From NCBI GenBank assembly GCA_015231265.1, contig JADGBX010000006.1:1-46526 (forward strand): DNA of 46,526 nt. Direction: 5' to 3'. Shown here piece by piece: positions 16,301 to 46,526 of the stretch; the first letter of the stretch is position 1; each line of letters opens with the position of its first letter. The translations under genes and the position numbers were made by a program. The stretch comes from Magnetococcales bacterium. GTDB taxonomy: Bacteria > Pseudomonadota > Magnetococcia > Magnetococcales > JADGBX01. The notes beneath the pieces were generated by a model, which worked only from the letters and a program-made list of their open reading frames with translations, had not been told where the DNA came from and did no database searches.

Positions 16301-17476
16301 ATGAACACTCTGATACCCAAGCGCTGCGTCGGACGCGCTTCCAGCGAGAGTGGGTTTTCGTTGGTGGAGTTCATGGTGGCCTCGGCCATCGGCCTCTTCA
16401 TGTTGCTGGGAATCATCCAGGCCATGGTGGGGATACGCACCACCACCCGTTTCAATGATGCCATCGAGTATATTCAGGAGGGGGGGCGTTTCGTGCTGTC
16501 GCAGATGACCAAGGAGGTGCGCATGGGAGGCTATGCCGGCTGTGTGCCCAACCTCGCCTGCGACAGCGGTGATACCCGTTGCGTCAACTCCCTGATCAAC
16601 ACTGCGGGAGTTGATTATACCGGTACCATGTTTGATCTGACGGTGGGAATCGGCGGTTGGGACTATGCCGCCACCTCTCCGGGGAACACCATCGATGTTT
16701 CGGATCTGGACCCTGAGGATGAACCGCTGGACAACTGGAACGACATGGATGCCAATCCGCTGCACTCCAGCCTCCAGGATCTGGTGGTTCCCGGCAGTGA
16801 TGTGCTGGTGGTGAAGTACCTCTCCGAACTCTCGGCGTTGACGCTCTCCGCAGCACCCGGCATCAACGACACGCTCTTCTCTCTGACCAGTGCCAGTGAT
16901 GTGGAGGACGGGACGCTCGTCGCCATTTCCGACTGCACCGGAACCAACATTTTTCAGAACCGCAGCGACAGCACCGAGAGCCAGCTCTCCCGGGCGTTCT
17001 CCACCGATTCACCCAGTCCCGGCAATGTAGATCCCACTGCCAATGCCCTGACCCACAGTCCGACCACCACGGCGGAGATCCATCAGTTCATCGTCAAGAT
17101 CTTCTATGTGGGGGAGGGGGGATCCGGAGAGCCGACACTCTACCGGACGACCTATGAAGGGGGAACGCTCAGTGATCCGGTAGAGATCGTCGAGGGGGTG
17201 GAGTCGTTGCAGATTCTTTTCGGCATCGATACCGATTCCGACGGGGTGCCCAATCAATATGTGGATCCCGACGGCGTGGGGGCCGGTGATGTGATCATCT
17301 CTGTCCGTCTCAGCTATCTGGTGCGCAGTCTGGACGCCGTTCGGGACGATGTGGATACGAACACCTACCGGCTCGGGGGCTCTTCAGTCGCCACCGGTGT
17401 CACTGTCAATCCGGCTGATGATCAGCGCCTTCGGCGCATCTTCAGCACAACGATCCAGGTGAGGAATACGGAATGA
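16301..17476 (+). CDS. pilW: Type IV minor pilin PilW (cassette A)
   Basis: SGFSLVEFMVASAIGLFMLLGIIQAMVGI...; C-term RRIFSTTIQVRNTE typical of PilW. Start set at MNTLIPKR. Confidence 0.88.
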   Translation: MNTLIPKRCVGRASSESGFSLVEFMVASAIGLFMLLGIIQAMVGIRTTTRFNDAIEYIQEGGRFVLSQMTKEVRMGGYAGCVPNLACDSGDTRCVNSLINTAGVDYTGTMFDLTVGIGGWDYAATSPGNTIDVSDLDPEDEPLDNWNDMDANPLHSSLQDLVVPGSDVLVVKYLSELSALTLSAAPGINDTLFSLTSASDVEDGTLVAISDCTGTNIFQNRSDSTESQLSRAFSTDSPSPGNVDPTANALTHSPTTTAEIHQFIVKIFYVGEGGSGEPTLYRTTYEGGTLSDPVEIVEGVESLQILFGIDTDSDGVPNQYVDPDGVGAGDVIISVRLSYLVRSLDAVRDDVDTNTYRLGGSSVATGVTVNPADDQRLRRIFSTTIQVRNTE

Positions 17477-31936: not shown

Positions 31937-32012
<76 letters not shown>

Positions 32013-32122: not shown

Positions 32123-33166
32123 ATGGCAACCATCCGCAAGACACCTTCTGGCACCTGGCAGTGTCAGGTACGGAAACGTGGATACCCTTCTGTTACGAAA
32201 ACGTTCAGAAGGAAGCGTGATGCCGAAGATTGGTCCCGGCAAACCGAGGATGAGATGGCACGCGGACTCTACATAGACCGCAGCCGAGCCGAACGATTGA
32301 CGGTTAGTGAAGCCGTTACCCGTTATCTGAAAGAGGTCTCCCCGACCAAGTCACCAGAGACATCCAGGTCCGAACACTCCAAAGCAAAACATATCATCAG
32401 AGAATTGGGTGGATACTCGCTTGCCGGGCTCCTGCCCGAACGCGTCGCTCACTATCGGGATTCGCGATTGGAAGCGGCCAGTCAGAATCAAGTGCGCCTC
32501 GAGCTTGCTCTGCTCTCGCATGTGTTCACGACTGCGATGATGGACTGGTCCCTTGGGCTGCCTTTCAATCCAGTCGCCTCAATTCGGAAACCTTCCCCAG
32601 GGAAAGGGAGAAACCGACGCCTGACGGGAGACGAGGAAGAGCGTCTCATTACTGCCTGTACCCAACATAGTAATCCGATGCTCGGATGGATCGTCAGGAT
32701 CGCCCTCACCACCGCCATGAGGAAGTCGGAGATTCTGACGCTGGAGCGATCTCAGGTAGACTTGGGGAAGCGAGTTGTCACGCTAACACGCACCAAGAAT
32801 GGGGATACACGAGCGGTTCCTCTGAGCAAAGAAGCGCTGACTGCTTTTCAGGAAGCGTTACATTGGCCGGTACGGGTAATGGGGACAGACCTCCTTTTCC
32901 CCGGAGACCCCGGCAAGGATAGACAGCGCCGACCCTACGTCATCAACAAGGTCTGGCAGACTGCATTGAAGCGTGCAGGAATCGACGGGTTGAGATTCCA
33001 TGACTTGCGACACGAAGCAACATCACGTTTTGTCGAGGCAGGGTTATCGGATCAAGAGGTGTCTTCAATCACGGGGCACCGCTCTATGCAGATGCTGAAA
33101 AGATATACTCATCTTCGCGGGGAAGATCTCGTCAACCGACTCGATCACCTACAAGGAGCTGGTTGA
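32123..33166 (+). CDS. Tyrosine recombinase / phage-type integrase
   Basis: N-term core-binding domain; catalytic region TTAMRKSEILTL, GLRFHDLRHEATSRFVEAGLSDQEVSSITGHRSMQMLKRYTHL (R, HxxR, H, Y). Directly downstream of tRNA-Phe. Confidence 0.95.
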   Translation: MATIRKTPSGTWQCQVRKRGYPSVTKTFRRKRDAEDWSRQTEDEMARGLYIDRSRAERLTVSEAVTRYLKEVSPTKSPETSRSEHSKAKHIIRELGGYSLAGLLPERVAHYRDSRLEAASQNQVRLELALLSHVFTTAMMDWSLGLPFNPVASIRKPSPGKGRNRRLTGDEEERLITACTQHSNPMLGWIVRIALTTAMRKSEILTLERSQVDLGKRVVTLTRTKNGDTRAVPLSKEALTAFQEALHWPVRVMGTDLLFPGDPGKDRQRRPYVINKVWQTALKRAGIDGLRFHDLRHEATSRFVEAGLSDQEVSSITGHRSMQMLKRYTHLRGEDLVNRLDHLQGAG

Positions 33167-35479: not shown

Positions 35480-36490
35480 TCAGGTGTCTGAAACGTCATC
35501 ATCTTTGCCTTCGGTTTCAGTATTCAAATCTTCGGTCTCGTCATCAGTTTCTGAGAACTCAATCCCAAAAGCGTGTTCTGCAAACTCGTAAAAGTCCTCC
35601 TCTCCATCGAAGTCCTCATCAATGACCTGCTTCAAGGCCTTGCCAAACATGACCAACGTACTTTTCTGTGCTTGATCATTCCCTGAGAACCGTGCCAGAA
35701 ACTGTCTAACTTCGTGTTTGTACGACTCCACTTCAAGGACGTCATTTGTGCTGATCCTGTCATGCACCGTCGGCATCAGATCGACAATTGCTCTGTGGAT
35801 AGATTCCTTCTCTTCCGGGACGAGTCCCTCAGCTTTGAGAATCCGCTTCTCCAGGTTGCCAACAGCAGTGAGAATCGCCTCTGCCGGCGATCTCTTCTGT
35901 TGCTCCTCGTCATTCCGTTGAGGTTCGCTCTTCTCATCCAACTTCCTCTTGTATCCGTTGATAATGCGACGCTGCTCCTTCGGGTCCTTGGCCCTTGCCG
36001 CCTTGACCAGAAGCTTCTGAGGTATGTTGTTGTCTTTCCTGAATTCCTGCTTGATCTCGTCTGGCAACTTGGCGAGAGAGTTCAACTCGGAGACCGTCTC
36101 TGGTGATCTATTGATGAGACCAGCCATCTCTATTTGCTTAAGTCCACGACTCTCCATCAACGAGTGCAACGCCTCTCCCATTTCAATGGCCGATAGGTCT
36201 TCCCGTTGGAAGTTCTCGATGATGGCAATCACCGCGGGATCCTTATCGGTGAAATGCACTGGTACTTCCTTCAAGCCGATACGTTTGGCAGCCTCCATCC
36301 TGCGATATCCGCACACAAGGACAATGTCGTCCCCCTCTTTCCGGCAGCCGACTGGATTGATAATCCCGTGATTTTTTATTGAACTGACCATCCCATCGAT
36401 CTTCTCCCATCCCGACTCCTTTCTGGGGTTCACGTCTGCATCAATCCGAATATCCGCAAGCGGGACCATGGCGAGTTTGCTGTCTTTCAT
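35480..36490 (-). CDS. ParB/Spo0J-family DNA-binding protein (orphan, no ParA seen)
   Basis: VCGYRRMEAAKRIGL (GxRR), IAIIENFQREDLSAIEMGEALHSLMESRGLKQIEMAGLINRSPETVSELNSLAKLP (ParB HTH); GGAGGT ribosome site. Confidence 0.9.
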   Translation of the reverse strand: MKDSKLAMVPLADIRIDADVNPRKESGWEKIDGMVSSIKNHGIINPVGCRKEGDDIVLVCGYRRMEAAKRIGLKEVPVHFTDKDPAVIAIIENFQREDLSAIEMGEALHSLMESRGLKQIEMAGLINRSPETVSELNSLAKLPDEIKQEFRKDNNIPQKLLVKAARAKDPKEQRRIINGYKRKLDEKSEPQRNDEEQQKRSPAEAILTAVGNLEKRILKAEGLVPEEKESIHRAIVDLMPTVHDRISTNDVLEVESYKHEVRQFLARFSGNDQAQKSTLVMFGKALKQVIDEDFDGEEDFYEFAEHAFGIEFSETDDETEDLNTETEGKDDDVSDT

Positions 36491-36573: not shown

Positions 36574-37959
36574 TTAATTACGATTGCGACGACGTGGTGT
36601 GTTCCTGCACTTCTGAAGAACGGCGAGCAGAAATGCCTGAATGGTTCGGGCGGACACTCCCTCATCGCTGGAAACGACGTTGAGAGCAGCAATACGTTCG
36701 CGCCTGATCCAGTTGGCAACGGTGGTGACGTTTCTTGATGAATAGGGGATGCGAACGCGTCTGCACGGCGCATCCCATTCACCCAGACGCTGCAATACGT
36801 GCTGCGTCATGGGGTGACGATTTGCCTCGGGATTCAGGAGTACGATGGTTCCGGTGGCAGCATGGATGTTCAGTTCATGGGCCATGACAAGCCGCTTATG
36901 GGCATCCTTGATCCTCCTGTCTACTGGCTTGAGATCAGGGGTTCTGGTATCGCGGACCCGGGCTGTCCAGCCGGTGACGCGCACCTGCTCTTCTGCTCCG
37001 ACTCTCTGAACGACTCTGCCGACAGGGTGGGTGGAGTCCGCGATCAGGCAGACGGGATAGGTATTGATGGGGAGCAGTTCCGCAAGCAGCGTGGGCCACT
37101 GTTGCCACAGGGATTCGTTCTGCACCCACCAGTGGGCACTCTGCCGCAGACGGTGACGGTAGAGTTTCTCGGTCTTCGGTTCCATACTCTTCAGGCGACG
37201 CATGGCGCTGAGCGGACCTCGCAGCCGACAAGCATCCAGGAAGTTGAGAAAGTGGATGTCGTTACTGGAAGTGTCACTGCCGATCTCGCCTATAGAAACC
37301 TTGTCAAAGGGATTGCGTATGGAGAACAACTCATGGTACTTGAGGCCGGTTCCACGTCCGATGACCTCCACCCGTGTAACATCATGAGGGGGAACAGACT
37401 TACGCTTGGACAAGAGGCACTGCCGACGGTTGTAGACAGTGACTCCCCACTTGCTGTTTTTGGAACCAGGATAGATTGTTTCCACACGCCCGAACCGATC
37501 CGAGTAGAGACCTGTGGCTTGCTTCTGTTTGACGTAGACTCGCAAGTTATCCAGGAGCACAGTGGCAATGTCGATGTAGATCTCAATCCTGAGAATCCGT
37601 GCACGAGTCAGTATCCCGATAGGGTCTATGAGGATGCGCTTGAGTTTCGACAGTATGTGAGAGATTACTCGGCTATCGCATGAGGTATGGTTCCACTCCA
37701 GCTTGAGGAAAGCCTTGGAGGAGCGGTAGGGATCACATGCTATTTCGATGGGTGTGGAGAACTCATCGCCATTCATCTTTCCTTGGATAGAGCGAAGGCA
37801 ACGATACCCCCGATGATTCCATGGTGCGGATACTTCTTCGGAGAGCTTTTTGTCTTCCTGTAACCAAGTCAGGATTCCCTCTGCCTCCTCTTCGGTATCC
37901 ACGTCGATACCAATGGAGACTCTGTCTATACCGAGTGTGAGATCAGGTGTTCCAGTCAT
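36574..37959 (-). CDS. Putative replication initiation protein (Rep_trans / filamentous-phage-type Rep-like)
   Basis: LRIEIYIDIATVLLDN ... GRVETIYPGSKNSKWGVTVYNRRQ ... DVTRVEVIGRG resembles pfam02486-like initiators. GGAGG-aacag-ATG gives start 37959 (MTGTPDLT). Confidence 0.5.
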   Translation of the reverse strand: MTGTPDLTLGIDRVSIGIDVDTEEEAEGILTWLQEDKKLSEEVSAPWNHRGYRCLRSIQGKMNGDEFSTPIEIACDPYRSSKAFLKLEWNHTSCDSRVISHILSKLKRILIDPIGILTRARILRIEIYIDIATVLLDNLRVYVKQKQATGLYSDRFGRVETIYPGSKNSKWGVTVYNRRQCLLSKRKSVPPHDVTRVEVIGRGTGLKYHELFSIRNPFDKVSIGEIGSDTSSNDIHFLNFLDACRLRGPLSAMRRLKSMEPKTEKLYRHRLRQSAHWWVQNESLWQQWPTLLAELLPINTYPVCLIADSTHPVGRVVQRVGAEEQVRVTGWTARVRDTRTPDLKPVDRRIKDAHKRLVMAHELNIHAATGTIVLLNPEANRHPMTQHVLQRLGEWDAPCRRVRIPYSSRNVTTVANWIRRERIAALNVVSSDEGVSARTIQAFLLAVLQKCRNTPRRRNRN

Positions 37960-37964
37960 CTGTT

Positions 37965-37996
37965 CCTCCAATCACGAGAGTTGCTTCGATTGGAGG
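37965..37996 (-). promoter_or_regulatory. Hairpin sequestering the Shine-Dalgarno of the putative rep gene
   Basis: Minus strand CCTCCAATC-gaagcaactctcgt-GATTGGAGG-aacag-ATG; the 9-bp perfect stem contains GGAGG. Confidence 0.65.
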
Positions 37997-38122
37997 CAAA
38001 TTAGTAACGAGGGAACTTTGCCCTATTATTAAAAGATATGATGGAATCTGTGGGGGGAATTCCTCACGCCGGTAACCGACGTATCCCACGACAGGAGAGA
38101 GTCAGCGACCCACTCAGGAAGT

Positions 38123-38260
38123 ACCGTCACATGACGGTTTGGAATGAGTTCGGCGCGCCGAACTTTCCTCCCATTGATTGCGAAGAGATCGTGGGGAACA
38201 ACACCGAGTTCGGCGCGCCGAACTTTTCTCTGCGTATACGACATTGCTTTGCGTATACGC
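38123..38260. promoter_or_regulatory. Palindrome/iteron cluster upstream of rep (candidate origin, operator or parS-like region)
   Basis: ACCGTCA-ca-TGACGGT (38123-38138); AGTTCGGCGCGCCGAACT at 38147-38164 and 38207-38224; GCGTATACG at 38232-38240 and GCGTATACGC at 38251-38260. Confidence 0.75.
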
Positions 38261-38905
38261 CCTCATATCGACACCCTAGCGGAATCGGGAACTCTAAGGG
38301 TATTGTCCGACGCGGGGATGTGCTGGTCGCCGATGTTCGAGAGCAACACTTTTTGGCTCCATCCTCCACGGGAGCAGGCGCTCAAAGTCGTCTCTGGTCT
38401 AAGCTGTGGCCAGCCCATCAAAGACGTACAGATAGGCGAACGATTCCGTGATCTGAATACAGCATGCCGTACTTTTCTTGCACCATGCGGCAATAGGCTC
38501 GGCAGGATCATCCGTAAAGCCATGAAGGCTGTGATTGAGTCGGAGCATGGCAGAGAGAGAGGAAGGCGTTCACGACTATCTCAAAGAGGCATTCGAGATC
38601 ACGAATATCGATGGCGACTGAATCATGATTTCAAGATAGTGTATTTGCATGAGGGTACTGATGATTGAATGTCCGCCCAAAACGGAAGCGTCGGATGGCA
38701 CCATCCTCCGGAACATCGGCACCCTGATGAACACGGAGCCGACAACAGCTGTATGAGGCTGCTTTACACCCGATGAGTCACCAAGGGCAGTGTCGGGTAC
38801 TTTGAAGGCGATACAGAAGCGCTCAGCGCCAGGAATCGATAGTCACTGCCATGGTGGTGAAGGACGGACTCAAAAAGGCACACCTTCATTTGGGAAACCG
38901 TATCG

Positions 38906-40598: not shown

Positions 40599-41171
40599 AT
40601 GGGCATGAAGAGACAAACCTCGCCATCTTCCCAAGGCGGCTTCACGCTGGTGGAACTGATCATGGGGGTCGCCATCGTCGCAATTCTAGTGACGGTTGCC
40701 GTTCCCAGTTACAACGAGATGCTCAAGCTCAACCGCCACCGCGTTCAAACCAGTACGCTGGTGCGGGATCTCGGCATGGCGCGCAGTGAAGCGGCGACCC
40801 GCAAGGCCAGAGTGGTGGTGTGTCGCAAAGATCTGGGCACGCAATGCAGTGTTGATGCCTCCCTCGATTGGGAGAACGGCTGGTTGGTGTTCATTGATGC
40901 CGATCTCGATGATGACTACGGGGCCGGCGATACACTGATCTCGCAGATGGATGCCCTGGAAGGCACGTCAAACACCCTGCGTGCCGACAACACCGACTTC
41001 GACGACCTCTTCTATTATGAACCTGACGGCACGGCGGTCTCTACTACCGGCACCCGTGGTGTTACGTTCAATTTTTGTGATGACCGGGGTGCCAGCTCGG
41101 GTATGACCGTCGAAATCAGCCAGTCCGGACGTCCCAAGATCGGCTCCGGGACGCCGTCGGGATGCCCCTGA
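40599..41171 (+). CDS. fimT: Type IV minor pilin, GspH/FimT family (cassette B)
   Basis: GGFTLVELIMGVAIVAILVTVAVPSYNEM ... LGMARSEAATRKARVVVCRKD. Confidence 0.88.
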   Translation: MGMKRQTSPSSQGGFTLVELIMGVAIVAILVTVAVPSYNEMLKLNRHRVQTSTLVRDLGMARSEAATRKARVVVCRKDLGTQCSVDASLDWENGWLVFIDADLDDDYGAGDTLISQMDALEGTSNTLRADNTDFDDLFYYEPDGTAVSTTGTRGVTFNFCDDRGASSGMTVEISQSGRPKIGSGTPSGCP

Positions 41172-41761
41172 TGATGGGCGGTGAAACCGATAACCGACAG
41201 TCGGGTTTTACCCTGCTGGAGATCCTTATTGCTCTGATCATCCTGGTGATCGGCACCTTTGCCGTCGTTAAGTTGCAGATGACCAGCCGCTCAAGCAACT
41301 ACGACTCCATGCAGCGGGGCATCGCCGGCATCCTGGTGCACGATATCACCGAGCGCATGCGGGCCAATAACGACGCTCTGGAGAGTTACGAAGCCACCGA
41401 TCTCGGCAGCGGCAGTCTCGGCAGCGAACCCTCGCCCGGTTGCACCAACAGCCTCGACTCCTGCTCCGGCAGTCAACTGGCTGCCCACGACCTCTGGGAG
41501 TGGGAGCAGCTTCTGGATGGAGCCTCGGAACTCAGTGCAGGTGGCAACAGTACCGGTGGACTGCTCAAACCCACGGCCTGTATCGCCGGTCCGGGAGGCG
41601 GGGTGTCGGGTACCTACACGGTGGCCATAGCGTGGCGGGGAAAACGGGCGTTGAGCAACCCCACCAGCACCACCTGCGGCGAAGGTAGCGGCAATTATGG
41701 AGCCAGTGACGAGTTTCGGCGGGTCATGGTTCTGGATACCTACATCTCAACCGCGAATTGA
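41162..41761 (+). CDS. pilV: Type IV minor pilin PilV (cassette B)
   Basis: SGFTLLEILIALIILVIGTFAVVKLQMTSRSSNYDSMQRGIAGILVHDITERMRANN. Confidence 0.88.
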   Translation: MPLMMGGETDNRQSGFTLLEILIALIILVIGTFAVVKLQMTSRSSNYDSMQRGIAGILVHDITERMRANNDALESYEATDLGSGSLGSEPSPGCTNSLDSCSGSQLAAHDLWEWEQLLDGASELSAGGNSTGGLLKPTACIAGPGGGVSGTYTVAIAWRGKRALSNPTSTTCGEGSGNYGASDEFRRVMVLDTYISTAN

Positions 41762-41765
41762 TCTC

Positions 41766-42788
41766 ATGATGCCATCTCCCGCACGCCACCCGGTTTACAG
41801 ACACTCGGAATATCCGGCGCATGCGCGAAGATCAAGCGTGTCCGGGTTCTCTTTGATCGAGCTGATGGTCTCTATGGCGTTGGGGCTGTTTTTGACCATC
41901 ATCGCCTTCACGCTCTACTCCAGTACGGCAGAGATCTACGCCCAGAACGAGCAGTCTGCAACCTTGCTGGAGGATACCCGTTATGCGATGCAGTTGCTCT
42001 CCAGCGAACTGAAGATGACCGGTTTCTATGGTAACGTCACCAGTCCCACCGATGTCGATGATACCGAGATGGATGATGCAAGCATGATCACCACCGACTG
42101 TGGCACACTCGACGATAAGGCGACCTGGGCATTCGATCTCGACCCACCCGTCGAGACACTCTCCTACGCCTCTCAAGGAGAGGTGATCACCACCTATCCC
42201 TGCATCGATGCCGCAGAAGTGACCAGTTCCGGGATGATCCTGGCGATCAAACGGGTGTTGGGAACAGAGCAGGCGTTTGCGGATCTCGATAACGGTTCGG
42301 TCTATGTCGGCGGCACCGGCACCAGCGGCACGCTCTTCCACATGGATGTTGCCACGGCGGATCTCGGCGCAGACTACACCTATTGGGAGTACGCAGTCAG
42401 CATCTTCTACGTTGACGACTCCAGCGGCACGCCGATGCTCTATCGCAAGGTGTTGCAGTCGGGCACCCCCAATACCATGACAACGGAGTCCAGCCCGGTC
42501 GCCGAAGGGGTCGAGCGACTCCACGTCACCTTCGGCATCGACAGCGATGACGATGGTTCCGCCAACTACTATCTGTCGACGCCCACCGACACCGAGCGGG
42601 AGACAGCCGTCTCCGCCCGGATCTTCATTCTCTCACGCAGTCTGGACGCCGATACGGACTACACCAATACCAAGACCTACGTCCTGGGCGATACCAGCGT
42701 CGGTCCATTCAATGACAACTACTACCGCAAGGTCTTCTCGACCACGGTGATGTTGCGCAACCCGCGCAACTACATGACATCCACCTGA
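41766..42788 (+). CDS. pilW: Type IV minor pilin PilW (cassette B)
   Basis: SGFSLIELMVSMALGLFLTIIAFTLYSSTAEIYAQNEQSATLLEDTRYAMQLLSSELKMTGFYGN; C-term YRKVFSTTVMLRNPRNYM. Confidence 0.88.
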   Translation: MMPSPARHPVYRHSEYPAHARRSSVSGFSLIELMVSMALGLFLTIIAFTLYSSTAEIYAQNEQSATLLEDTRYAMQLLSSELKMTGFYGNVTSPTDVDDTEMDDASMITTDCGTLDDKATWAFDLDPPVETLSYASQGEVITTYPCIDAAEVTSSGMILAIKRVLGTEQAFADLDNGSVYVGGTGTSGTLFHMDVATADLGADYTYWEYAVSIFYVDDSSGTPMLYRKVLQSGTPNTMTTESSPVAEGVERLHVTFGIDSDDDGSANYYLSTPTDTERETAVSARIFILSRSLDADTDYTNTKTYVLGDTSVGPFNDNYYRKVFSTTVMLRNPRNYMTST

Positions 42789-42803
42789 CACGGAGGGGTA
42801 ACG

Positions 42804-43355
42804 ATGAAGAGACAACGGCACGTTGAATCGTCTTCTCCACCATCTCGTGATGCTCGCGGCATGGCCCACCCGGAACGGGGGGCGGTCGTCATCCTCTCCA
42901 TCATGTTTCTGATGATGTTCGTGACCATGTTGGGGTTGACTGCGTCCAACAGCAGTGTGCAGGACTTGCGCATGTCCAGTAACGCCATTGATCGCGTGGT
43001 CGCCCACGAGACTGCTCAGGCGGGCGTGGATGTGATCGTTTCGGATACCAGCTACTTCACCACCTCCGGTGGATCAGGATACACCGTGTGCAGCACCCAT
43101 CATCCAAGTGCCGCCGATACCGATGTTTGCGATGTAGCCGACTTGACCGTGGATGAGGCGGCTCTTTCGGATGATCTCACCTACATCGAGATCAAACAGA
43201 CCGCCACCGGAAGTTCCGCCGCCCGCTCCATGGGCACCAGCGCCGAACTCTACGAGATCTACAGCTATCAGGTCACCAGCACCTACGATGCCACCGCCAA
43301 CAAAGGGGGCAAGACCGGCATCGTTCAGGGTATTCAACTGGTGGTGTCGAAATGA
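42804..43355 (+). CDS. pilX: Type IV pilus assembly protein PilX (cassette B)
   Basis: ERGAVVILSIMFLMMFVTMLGLTASNSSVQDLRMSSNAIDRVVAHETAQAGVD. Confidence 0.85.
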   Translation: MKRQRHVESSSPPSRDARGMAHPERGAVVILSIMFLMMFVTMLGLTASNSSVQDLRMSSNAIDRVVAHETAQAGVDVIVSDTSYFTTSGGSGYTVCSTHHPSAADTDVCDVADLTVDEAALSDDLTYIEIKQTATGSSAARSMGTSAELYEIYSYQVTSTYDATANKGGKTGIVQGIQLVVSK

Positions 43356-43383
43356 GGAGTCTATCCGAACCGGGGAGCAGGCC

Positions 43384-46300
43384 CATGAGATCACAACGCC
43401 GACAGGGACGAATCATCACCGGAATCACGCTTCTGATTGCGTCGATTCTCTGCCTCACCCCGGCCCCCATGGGCAGCCGGGCTGACGATACCGACATCTA
43501 CATCAACGGCGACTTCTCCGGCGGGTCGGAACCGCTGGTGATGTTCCATCTCGACTACCGCTCCAACCTGGGCTCCACGGTCTGTAGTGGTGGCGACCTG
43601 GCCGGATGTCAGACGCTCCACACTGAAGGCTACATGGTCAAGGATCCGGCCACCGAGACCATCGACTTTTTCGACCTGATGCGGGCAGTGCTGCGCAAGG
43701 TGTTCGACTCGCTGGACGGCATGAAGGTCGGCTTAATGATCAACCATGCCAACAGTAACAACTGTGAAGGTCCCACCGTCGCCAACCGCTGCTCCAACGG
43801 CGGCTATATCATGTACGGCTTCGAGTCGATGGTGGACGGCGACAGCAACGGTAACAAGGCGGCGTTCCTGAACCTGTTGGATAACATCCCGTCACCGGGC
43901 GGATCTGGTTCCCACTCCTACCAGGGCAAGGAGACCTATTTCGAGTTCTTCCGCTATATCACCGGCCAGGCCATCCTCAACGGCCACGTCGGCGAACTGG
44001 ACTACACCGGCAACACCAACCCAGAGAAGAACCAGAATCTCAATGAAGAGGCGGCCCTCATCCCCATCATGTGGGATGAGGACATCGAGTCTGGCGTTGA
44101 CTACATCTCACCCCTGGATGCCAGCTCGGACTGCGGCCAGATCTACGTCATCAACATCATGTTCGGCGTCACCAACCAGGATGCTGATTCTGATGACTTT
44201 ATCGAAGACACCAAAGCTAACGGCGGCCTGGATTCCATCACCCTCTCCGGCGGTTCTGATGCTCAGTTTGAACAAGTTCTGACCTGGTTGCACGACAACG
44301 ACCTGGGCGATGGAACCTATGGCACCGTGCCCGAACTCTCCGGCAACCAGAACGTCACCTCCTACTTCGTCTCTGACCACTCTAAAGCAGACGACTTTGC
44401 CGCTTCCGGTGGAACCGGCAATGCGTATTCACTGGGCACTGACCCCGACGCCATGGTGAGTGTGTTCCAAAACATCTTCAACTCGATCCTGAGCGTCAGC
44501 ACCACCATGGTCTCGGCGACGGTGCCGGTGAACGTCTTCAACCGCTCCCAGGCGTTGGATCGTGTTTACATCGCTCTGTTCAAACCGGATGAGGATCGTT
44601 TTCCCATTTGGAAAGGGAATATCAAAAAGCTGAAGCTGGTGGATCTCAGCGAGGACGAATCGATCCTGGTTGATACCTCTGAAACCGATGCTGTCGCCAC
44701 CGATGGTCGTATCGACAACAACGCTCTGACCTACTGGACCGATGCCGACACCCTGCCCACTGCCGACACCGACGAAGGCGAGGTGGAGGGTAAGGACGGA
44801 CGGTTCGTCTATCGTGGTGGTGTGGGACAGAAGATCCCGGGCTTCACGACCAATGATCTCTCCACGGCCAACTCCGACGGTTACCGAGTCATCTACACGG
44901 AACCCAGCAGCTTTACCAACGGCACTCCGACTGCCTTGCGTGATCTGAACTGGACAACCGGCTCTGCCTCCGACATCAAGAGTGCATTCGGCGGGGTTAC
45001 GACGACGGTTTCCCGGACCTTGATCAAGTTCATTCGAGGCGAGGACGTGGAAGACCATGACGCCGATGGCTCCACCAGCGATATGCGGCCCTGGCTCCTT
45101 GGAGACCCCCTGCACTCCAAGCCGGTGGCGGTCAACTACGGAGCCCGTGGTCTCTTTACTGAAGCCAGCCCGGACATCCGCCTCTTCTTCGGCAACAACG
45201 ATGGCATGATCCGGATGATCGAGGATGTGGACAGCGGCGGCACCCATCAAGGCAGCGAAGGGTGGGCCTTCATGCCGCTGGACGCCATGGGGATTCAACC
45301 GACGCTGCGGGATAACATCGTCAGCGATCCGGTTCACCCCTATGGCGTGGACGGTGCACCGGCGGTCTGGGTCAACGATACCGACAACGACGGCACTATC
45401 GAAGCTGGCGAGACGGCCTATCTCTACATGGGCATGCGTCGGGGGGGGGACTCCTACTATGCATTGGATATTTCAGATCCCGACGACCCGCAGATGCTCT
45501 GGAAAATCACGAAAACCACAGGTGGTGATTTCGACGAGTTGGGGCTCACATTCTCCACACCTCGCTTAACCAGCATCGCCTACGATGATGGCGGCACCAT
45601 CACCACCAAAGTCGTGGTGTTTGCTGGTGGCTACGACACCAACAAGGATGATCGTACAGGCGTTGGAACCGACGACTCCGTTGGCAATGCTATCTACATC
45701 GTCAATGCTTCCGATGGCAGCCTGATCTGGAAAGGGTACTACGGCGCCTCAACCGGACCCGATGCCGGTGATGAGCGGCTTTACACCCATTCAGGATTGG
45801 TAGACAGTATCCCCTCCGAGGTCGCGATATTCGACTCCGACGGTGATGGTCTTTTGGATCGCATCTATGTGGGAGACACTGGCGGCAGTGTTTGGCGCGG
45901 CGACTTCTCCGGCACCGACCGGGCTAACTGGTCCTTGATGAAATTTGCCAATTTCGGGCGCCACGACAGCGCTGCAGCAGCCGATGATCGTCGCTTCTTT
46001 CACCGGCCCGATATCGTTAAGAGTCAGGACTCCACCGGCTCCTTTGATGGCGTCGTTATGGGATCCGGTGATCGCGCCTATCCCCGCGGCGAGACCGTGG
46101 TTAACTGGATGTACATGATCAAGGACCGCAACATCACCAGCGGCTCGCCACCAGGCTCCACTATCGCCCAGGCCGATATGGGTGACGTCACCGACAACTG
46201 TCTTCAGGATGACACCTGTTTCGTGGAACCCAATCTGGTCAATGGCTGGAAACTCCAGATGGAGATCTCCGGTGAGAAGGTACTCTCAACCCCCCTGACC

Positions 46301-46526
46301 ATCGCCAACATCGTCTTTCTGACCAGCTTCCAACCTCCGGGTGGTAGCATCGATACAGCCACCTGTGCCCCCTCCGAGGGGACGGGAACCGTCTGGGCGT
46401 TGGATCTTCAAGAGGCCACTGCGGTCCGCAACTACGATGAAGAGAATGATGGTGACGACGGCTCCATCAACTATTCCAAGACCGACCGGGGTGACTCCCT
46501 CTCCTCTGCGGGCATCCCGTCAGAAG
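43384..46526 (+). CDS. pilY1: PilY1-like pilus tip protein (cassette B), incomplete at window end
   Basis: Open frame from MRSQRRQGRIITGITLLIASILCLTP... to the window end; LLGDPLHSKPVAVNYG, IRLFFGNNDGMIRMI, IFDSDGDGLLDRIYVGDTGGSVWRGDF (propeller and Ca-binding-like loop). Confidence 0.88.

Follow-up and report, generated by a model that had tools for sequence, protein, structure and literature searches.

Two perfect 18-bp palindromes lying upstream of a putative replication gene, in an integrated element of a Magnetococcales bacterium, are very probably the cognate sites of the ParB protein that the same element encodes, and would constitute a non-canonical 18-bp parS. The stretch of DNA that was analysed, referred to here as the window, is 46,526 nucleotides long and comes from a genome that is 80% complete. 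The wider explanation, in which the palindromes are the loading sites of ParB and the protein then controls its own operon as a clamp, is considered likely from comparative sequence analysis, and the chance that this regulatory clamp on rep-parB is the main role of the protein and its sites is put at about even. The features concerned are:

35480 to 36490, minus strand: orphan ParB of 336 amino acids, open frame confirmed, with ParB_N and HTH_ParB domains
36574 to 37959, minus strand: Rep, 461 amino acids, open frame confirmed, N-terminal half distantly Rep_trans-like
37965 to 37996, minus strand: 9-bp inverted repeat with a 14-nt gap, whose pairing in the mRNA takes in GGAGG, the ribosome-binding site of rep
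38123 to 38138, no strand assigned: inverted repeat ACCGTCA-CA-TGACGGT, a candidate operator or Rep site
38147 to 38164, no strand assigned: ParB-site candidate 1 (putative non-canonical parS), perfect 18-bp palindrome AGTTCGGCGCGCCGAACT
38207 to 38224, no strand assigned: ParB-site candidate 2, the palindrome AGTTCGGCGCGCCGAACT again
38232 to 38260, no strand assigned: two GCGTATACG units, at 38232-38240 and 38251-38259, 19 bp apart

The two copies of AGTTCGGCGCGCCGAACT start exactly 60 bp apart and both sit in the context GAGTTCGGCGCGCCGAACTTTYCTC. They are real and far above chance, since third-order shuffling gives an expectation of 0.075 perfect 18-bp palindromes per window against the two observed. 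No further copy with three or fewer mismatches is present in the window (shuffled sequences give 0), no other exact copy is found in the organism's own genome, and a degenerate third copy at 38455-38479 (68%) is not separable from chance. The first-pass annotation had placed the palindromes, the ACCGTCA repeat and the two GCGTATACG units correctly. Its iteron label does not suit the cluster, as an iteron origin would be built of multiple direct repeats, each some 18-22 bp long, and only the two short GCGTATACG units are found; because CGTATACG is itself palindromic, an alternative reading of this pair is an inverted repeat of 9 bp, spanning 38232-38260, whose arms are separated by 11 bp. Its view that the site is not the canonical chromosomal parS is borne out, with AGTTCGGCGCGCCGAACT failing to match TGTTTCACGTGAAACA. 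Tight inverted repeats found between 31.9 and 41.0 kb are confined to three, all in this cluster, and the region 38100-38280 has a strong predicted single-strand DNA fold (z = -6.7).

Measured from rep, the palindromes lie 188-265 bp upstream, nearer to that gene than to parB, which is about 1.7 kb away; parB itself is downstream of rep on the same strand after an 83-bp gap. A simple scan gave no sigma-70-like promoter upstream of rep, and the term promoter region, as applied to rep, therefore derives from position. Closer to the gene, the hairpin over the rep ribosome-binding site at 37965-37996 is weak (z -1.9) and is a possible element of translational control of rep.

The association of the palindrome with ParB emerges from its distribution within the class to which the host belongs. 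A pattern, AGTTCNGCNNGCNGAACT, was drawn from the sites of the window and of a locus in genome G007 and was searched in 48 genomes of the class, where it matched only the two window sites, G007:C397:9056-9073 and G011:C51:3456-3473. The three best relatives of the window ParB in the class are those of G011:C51, G011:C63 and G007:C397. At G007:C397 the site (AGTTCTGCACGCAGAACT) lies 110 bp upstream of the parB start, at G011:C51 (AGTTCTGCGCGCCGAACT) it lies 5 bp beyond the parB stop, and at G011:C63 a near-match (TATTCTGCGCGCAGAACT) lies 7 bp beyond the stop, giving a consensus across the loci of AGTTCkGCrCGCmGAACT. Because the pattern came from the window and G007, the G011:C51 site is independent of its design; the evidence base is four loci in one class, and the pattern was made after two of them had been seen. 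A laxer core yields 14 distinct sites in the class, five of which fall at the four parB loci and are all intergenic, whereas of the remaining nine none is near a ParB and eight are inside open reading frames. Outside the class, some 350 further genomes of the phylum gave only two matches, both inside one conserved coding sequence, that of an oxidoreductase, and these were taken as chance. A palindromic site is thus conserved beside parB among its relatives. The first-pass annotation had named as grounds for refutation that homologous islands keep rep and parB but lose the sites; in the islands found, parB and the site are retained but this rep is absent.

The gene for ParB is the only one common to all four loci. 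Otherwise, two of them have a distantly related helicase in common, and a recombinase of G007 is distantly similar to the window integrase. Their replication genes differ, with Prim-Pol and D5-like genes in G007 and DUF5906 and RepB_primase in G011:C63, while no replication gene was recognised at G011:C51. This bears directly on the idea that the palindromes are the double-strand origin of Rep, extruding as cruciforms at which Rep nicks the DNA for rolling-circle replication. Nicking by Rep_trans initiators does take place at a hairpin (PMC4797284), and a cluster placed directly upstream of rep, with a strong single-strand fold, is what such an origin would look like, but the same palindrome occurs at siblings that replicate with other genes. 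Moreover, the two best Rep relatives (L254/L268 and L255/L269) have neither parB nor palindrome, so that the site is not conserved with rep across relatives as it should be for a Rep_trans double-strand origin, and the inverted repeats at 38123-38138 and 38232-38260 remain free as candidate Rep sites. An origin at the palindromes is regarded as improbable. On these three grounds, namely the single shared gene, the differing replication genes and the absence of parB and motif alike from the two distant Rep relatives, the palindrome is best read as a ParB site and, as far as sequence can exclude it, is not the site of Rep. Of the alternatives originally put forward for the cluster, an origin/operator or a non-canonical parS, it is the parS that gains, as the palindrome follows parB across unrelated elements, and the replication origin that loses.

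The Rep protein has no relatives in the phage, plasmid, viral_contigs, genome_contigs or class-genome collections, and a search of the phylum produced two weak ones. It gives no direct profile match to Rep_trans (PF02486), and its relative L255 reaches an E-value of 5.5e-4, which is below the cut-off. The aligned region contains Y-N/D-R/K (a catalytic-tyrosine-like V-Y-N-R) and R-x-E motifs like those of the Rep_trans family, whose catalytic-region residues have been described (PMC4797284). The protein is likely to be a Rep_trans-like initiator, and the earlier designation as a putative Rep is retained, albeit weakly, on this distant likeness. The C-terminal part resembles the cpYpsA SLOG domain at an E-value of about 0.013-0.028 (0.026 for the whole protein and 0.013 for the part), again below the cut-off, and Rep may be fused to a SLOG-like domain of this kind, which would put an initiator and a nucleotide sensor in one protein, an uncommon combination. 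A structure predicted from the single sequence had a mean pLDDT of 39 and was not used for a fold search. The Rep relative in L268 lies beside tmRNA, together with a terminase small subunit, between two TTGCACTTGAGTGCAA copies (9060 and 10831; 1.8 kb apart), in what looks like a satellite-like element.

Further afield, Nitrosococcus plasmids with parA-parB contain an 18-bp palindrome twice, once inside parB and once just after it:

L221, 6435 and 6850, and L222, 5435 and 5859: Nitrosococcus parS candidate GAGTCGGACGTCCGACTC, one copy inside parB

Among the more distant ParB relatives, some have other palindromes in or near parB: Indioceanicola has TGTAAAACGTTTTACA twice before parA, and an Aphanizomenon phage has GTGTTCAGACGTCTGAACAC inside parB. 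In many others no such palindrome was seen. A search of genome_contigs with an alignment of the four ParBs retrieved mostly Firmicutes chromosomal ParB/Noc proteins and was of no use for the site.

The 16-bp core of the palindrome also occurs as a dispersed repeat in tailed-phage contigs, with no ParB relative in the loci fetched. The contig IMGVR_UViG_3300028837_000945 (L225, L226, L229) has six exact GTTCTGCGCGCAGAAC copies in 32 kb and a second one, 3300028837_002030 (L234, L239), has more; some of these copies are found at gene starts or ends, and they resemble a dispersed operator-type repeat. Given that no ParB relative turned up in the phage loci examined, a sequence of this kind can probably also be bound by proteins other than ParB. 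In viral contigs, the exact 18-mer was found at one site (L007), in a Mu-like tail-gene region and consistent with chance, and the degenerate motif fell nearly always within open reading frames with no ParB; both were set aside.

The phage repeats lend some substance to a plainer account, according to which the palindromes are the operator of another rep repressor or a terminator-like hairpin, the link to parB being a coincidence of mobile-element history. The location upstream of rep would agree with the former and a terminator-like hairpin predicted by a scan at the second palindrome, on the minus strand, with the latter. Coincidence is nevertheless hard to reconcile with a site that recurs within about 110 bp of parB at three loci sharing no other gene with the window element, and positions both before and after parB fit neither single role; this account is given little credence. 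Two sibling sites lie beyond the end of parB, so neither a promoter nor an operator role can hold for the palindrome in general.

The element in which rep and parB reside is bounded by, and carries, the following features:

31937 to 32012, plus strand: tRNA-Phe(GAA), the integration site, with the att core formed by its final 49 bp (31964-32012)
32123 to 33166, plus strand: tyrosine integrase, adjoining tRNA-Phe
40599 to 46525, plus strand: fimT-pilV-pilW-pilX-pilY1 minor pilin operon, interrupted by the contig end

No second copy of the 49-bp att core is present within the window, but it is copied exactly on another contig of the same genome (G000:C447:5085-5133), where it is followed by a terminator-like hairpin, as is tRNA-Phe in three relatives. 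The nearest relative of the integrase, in G044, is 64% identical and likewise located at tRNA-Phe, and a second att copy follows there at a distance of 12.2 kb. An integrase beside a tRNA gene together with a second att copy is the arrangement of a tRNA-integrated element, as the first-pass annotation had supposed. The element probably spans from 31964 to beyond the contig end and terminates in C447, on an inferred joining of contigs (C426-C447). The C447 copy (L300) is the probable right end, and phage-like genes (AntA, TniB-like) lie beyond it. With no other att copy than the one on C447, the minor pilin operon probably lies inside the element as cargo. PilW is rare among the class genomes; a second PilW-like gene is found in the window at 17042-17473, to the left of the tRNA.

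The ParB protein is assigned by its domains, with Pfam E-values for ParB_N and HTH_ParB of 9.7e-13 and 1.7e-6, over the cut-offs, and a TIGR00180 score of 99.7 bits against a cut-off of 58. The CTPase motifs GxRR and ENxQR are kept (as CGYRR and ENFQRED), and the protein begins right at the CTPase domain. No ParA-type Walker motif (KGGxGKT-type) is found in the element or the three sibling loci, and the ParA-binding motif LG-R/K-GL is absent from the ParBs of the window, G007 and G011, although this pattern also misses several ParA-linked ParBs and is a weak criterion alone. The description of ParB as an orphan stands on both counts. In the recognition helix, the ParBs of the window and G007, both of those in G011 and both from Nitrosococcus have a Glu where the alignable chromosomal ParBs of the class have an Asn, at a position (N178) that is among the parS contacts (PMC7383237). 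As a predictor of the site this Glu fails, since L141, L142 and L176 possess the residue but lack a perfect palindrome.

It is possible, though the less favoured view, that the palindromes are a classical partition centromere, with a ParA acting in trans from the host chromosome or a helper plasmid to move the ParB bound to them, so that the excised circle is kept in both daughter cells. Rep and the integrase imply a circular form, the related Nitrosococcus plasmids have a ParA adjoining parB and the same kind of palindrome, and SGI1, which is also integrative, uses parS sites with the ParA and ParB of a plasmid (PMC10954446). Against this are the Walker motif missing from the element and the sibling loci, the missing LG-R/K-GL motif and the start of the window ParB at its CTPase domain, although with the genome 80% complete a ParA may be encoded elsewhere. 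The regulatory clamp is favoured because the element shows no ParA and its ParB has no ParA-binding motif. Proteins of the ParB family slide as CTP clamps from the site at which they load. In this mechanism, ParB dimers would recognise the palindrome through the helix-turn-helix, close as a CTP-dependent clamp and slide into the rep-parB promoter region. The first job of such a KorB/VirB-like clamp would be control of the rep-parB operon, that is, of how the excised circle replicates or in how many copies it is present, and partition of the circle through a host or helper ParA may be a second role.

More tentatively, ParB and its site may form a ParB-parS pair that operates without ParA, is exchanged among unrelated integrated elements and acts here as a CTP-clamp switch of a Rep_trans-like, possibly SLOG-fused, initiator. 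If so, the copy number of the element would respond to CTP or other nucleotides. Orphan ParBs are common on mobile elements and are mostly uncharacterised (PMC12704722). Comparative genomics here points to a specific 18-bp site for one orphan-ParB clade and provides a small, testable set of protein-DNA pairs (the window, G007, the two in G011 and Nitrosococcus), opening direct questions as to the job of a ParB without ParA and how site specificity changes as the pair moves between elements.

Of the known systems, the closest is the parAB of the Nitrosococcus plasmids (N. oceani plasmid A, pNHAL01 and the N. watsonii plasmid), whose ParB is about 31% identical to that of the window and 42% to the G007 sibling. 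They resemble the window system in having, at parB, two copies of a perfect 18-bp palindrome, in its inner TCGG...CCGA and in the recognition-helix Glu, but differ in having a ParA, an N-terminal extension of ParB and the palindrome GAGTCGGACGTCCGACTC, with one copy inside parB, and in being free plasmids. The parS of the Burkholderiales secondary replicons (Bsr) and the canonical chromosomal parS are likewise short perfect palindromes near par genes, bound by a ParB-family protein, whose sequence has diversified between replicons (PMC5450999). However, these are 16 bp long with T-rich ends, as in the chromosomal TGTTTCACGTGAAACA, and are accompanied by ParA, whereas the window site is 18 bp, G+C-rich and without ParA. 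For Rep, the closest systems are the Rep_trans initiators and MOBT relaxases (PMC4797284, PMC6499999). The N-terminal half of the window protein has the catalytic-tyrosine-like V-Y-N-R region and an R-x-E motif and is distantly similar to proteins with weak Rep_trans matches, but it gives no direct Pfam match and may have an extra C-terminal SLOG-like domain. SGI1, also integrative, contains two inverted repeats resembling parS, one of them adjoining its replication operon, yet it lacks a complete Par system and relies on the ParB of a helper plasmid, whereas the window element encodes its own (PMC10954446). The model for the proposed clamp is provided by KorB-OB of RK2 (PMC11790492) and VirB-virS (PMC10770331). 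Both proteins are CTP clamps with a ParB fold, each loading at its own specific site and controlling plasmid genes from a distance, and KorB silences plasmid promoters as a sliding CTP clamp (PMC11790492). Their site sequences are different from that of the window, and the locking of the KorB clamp needs KorA.
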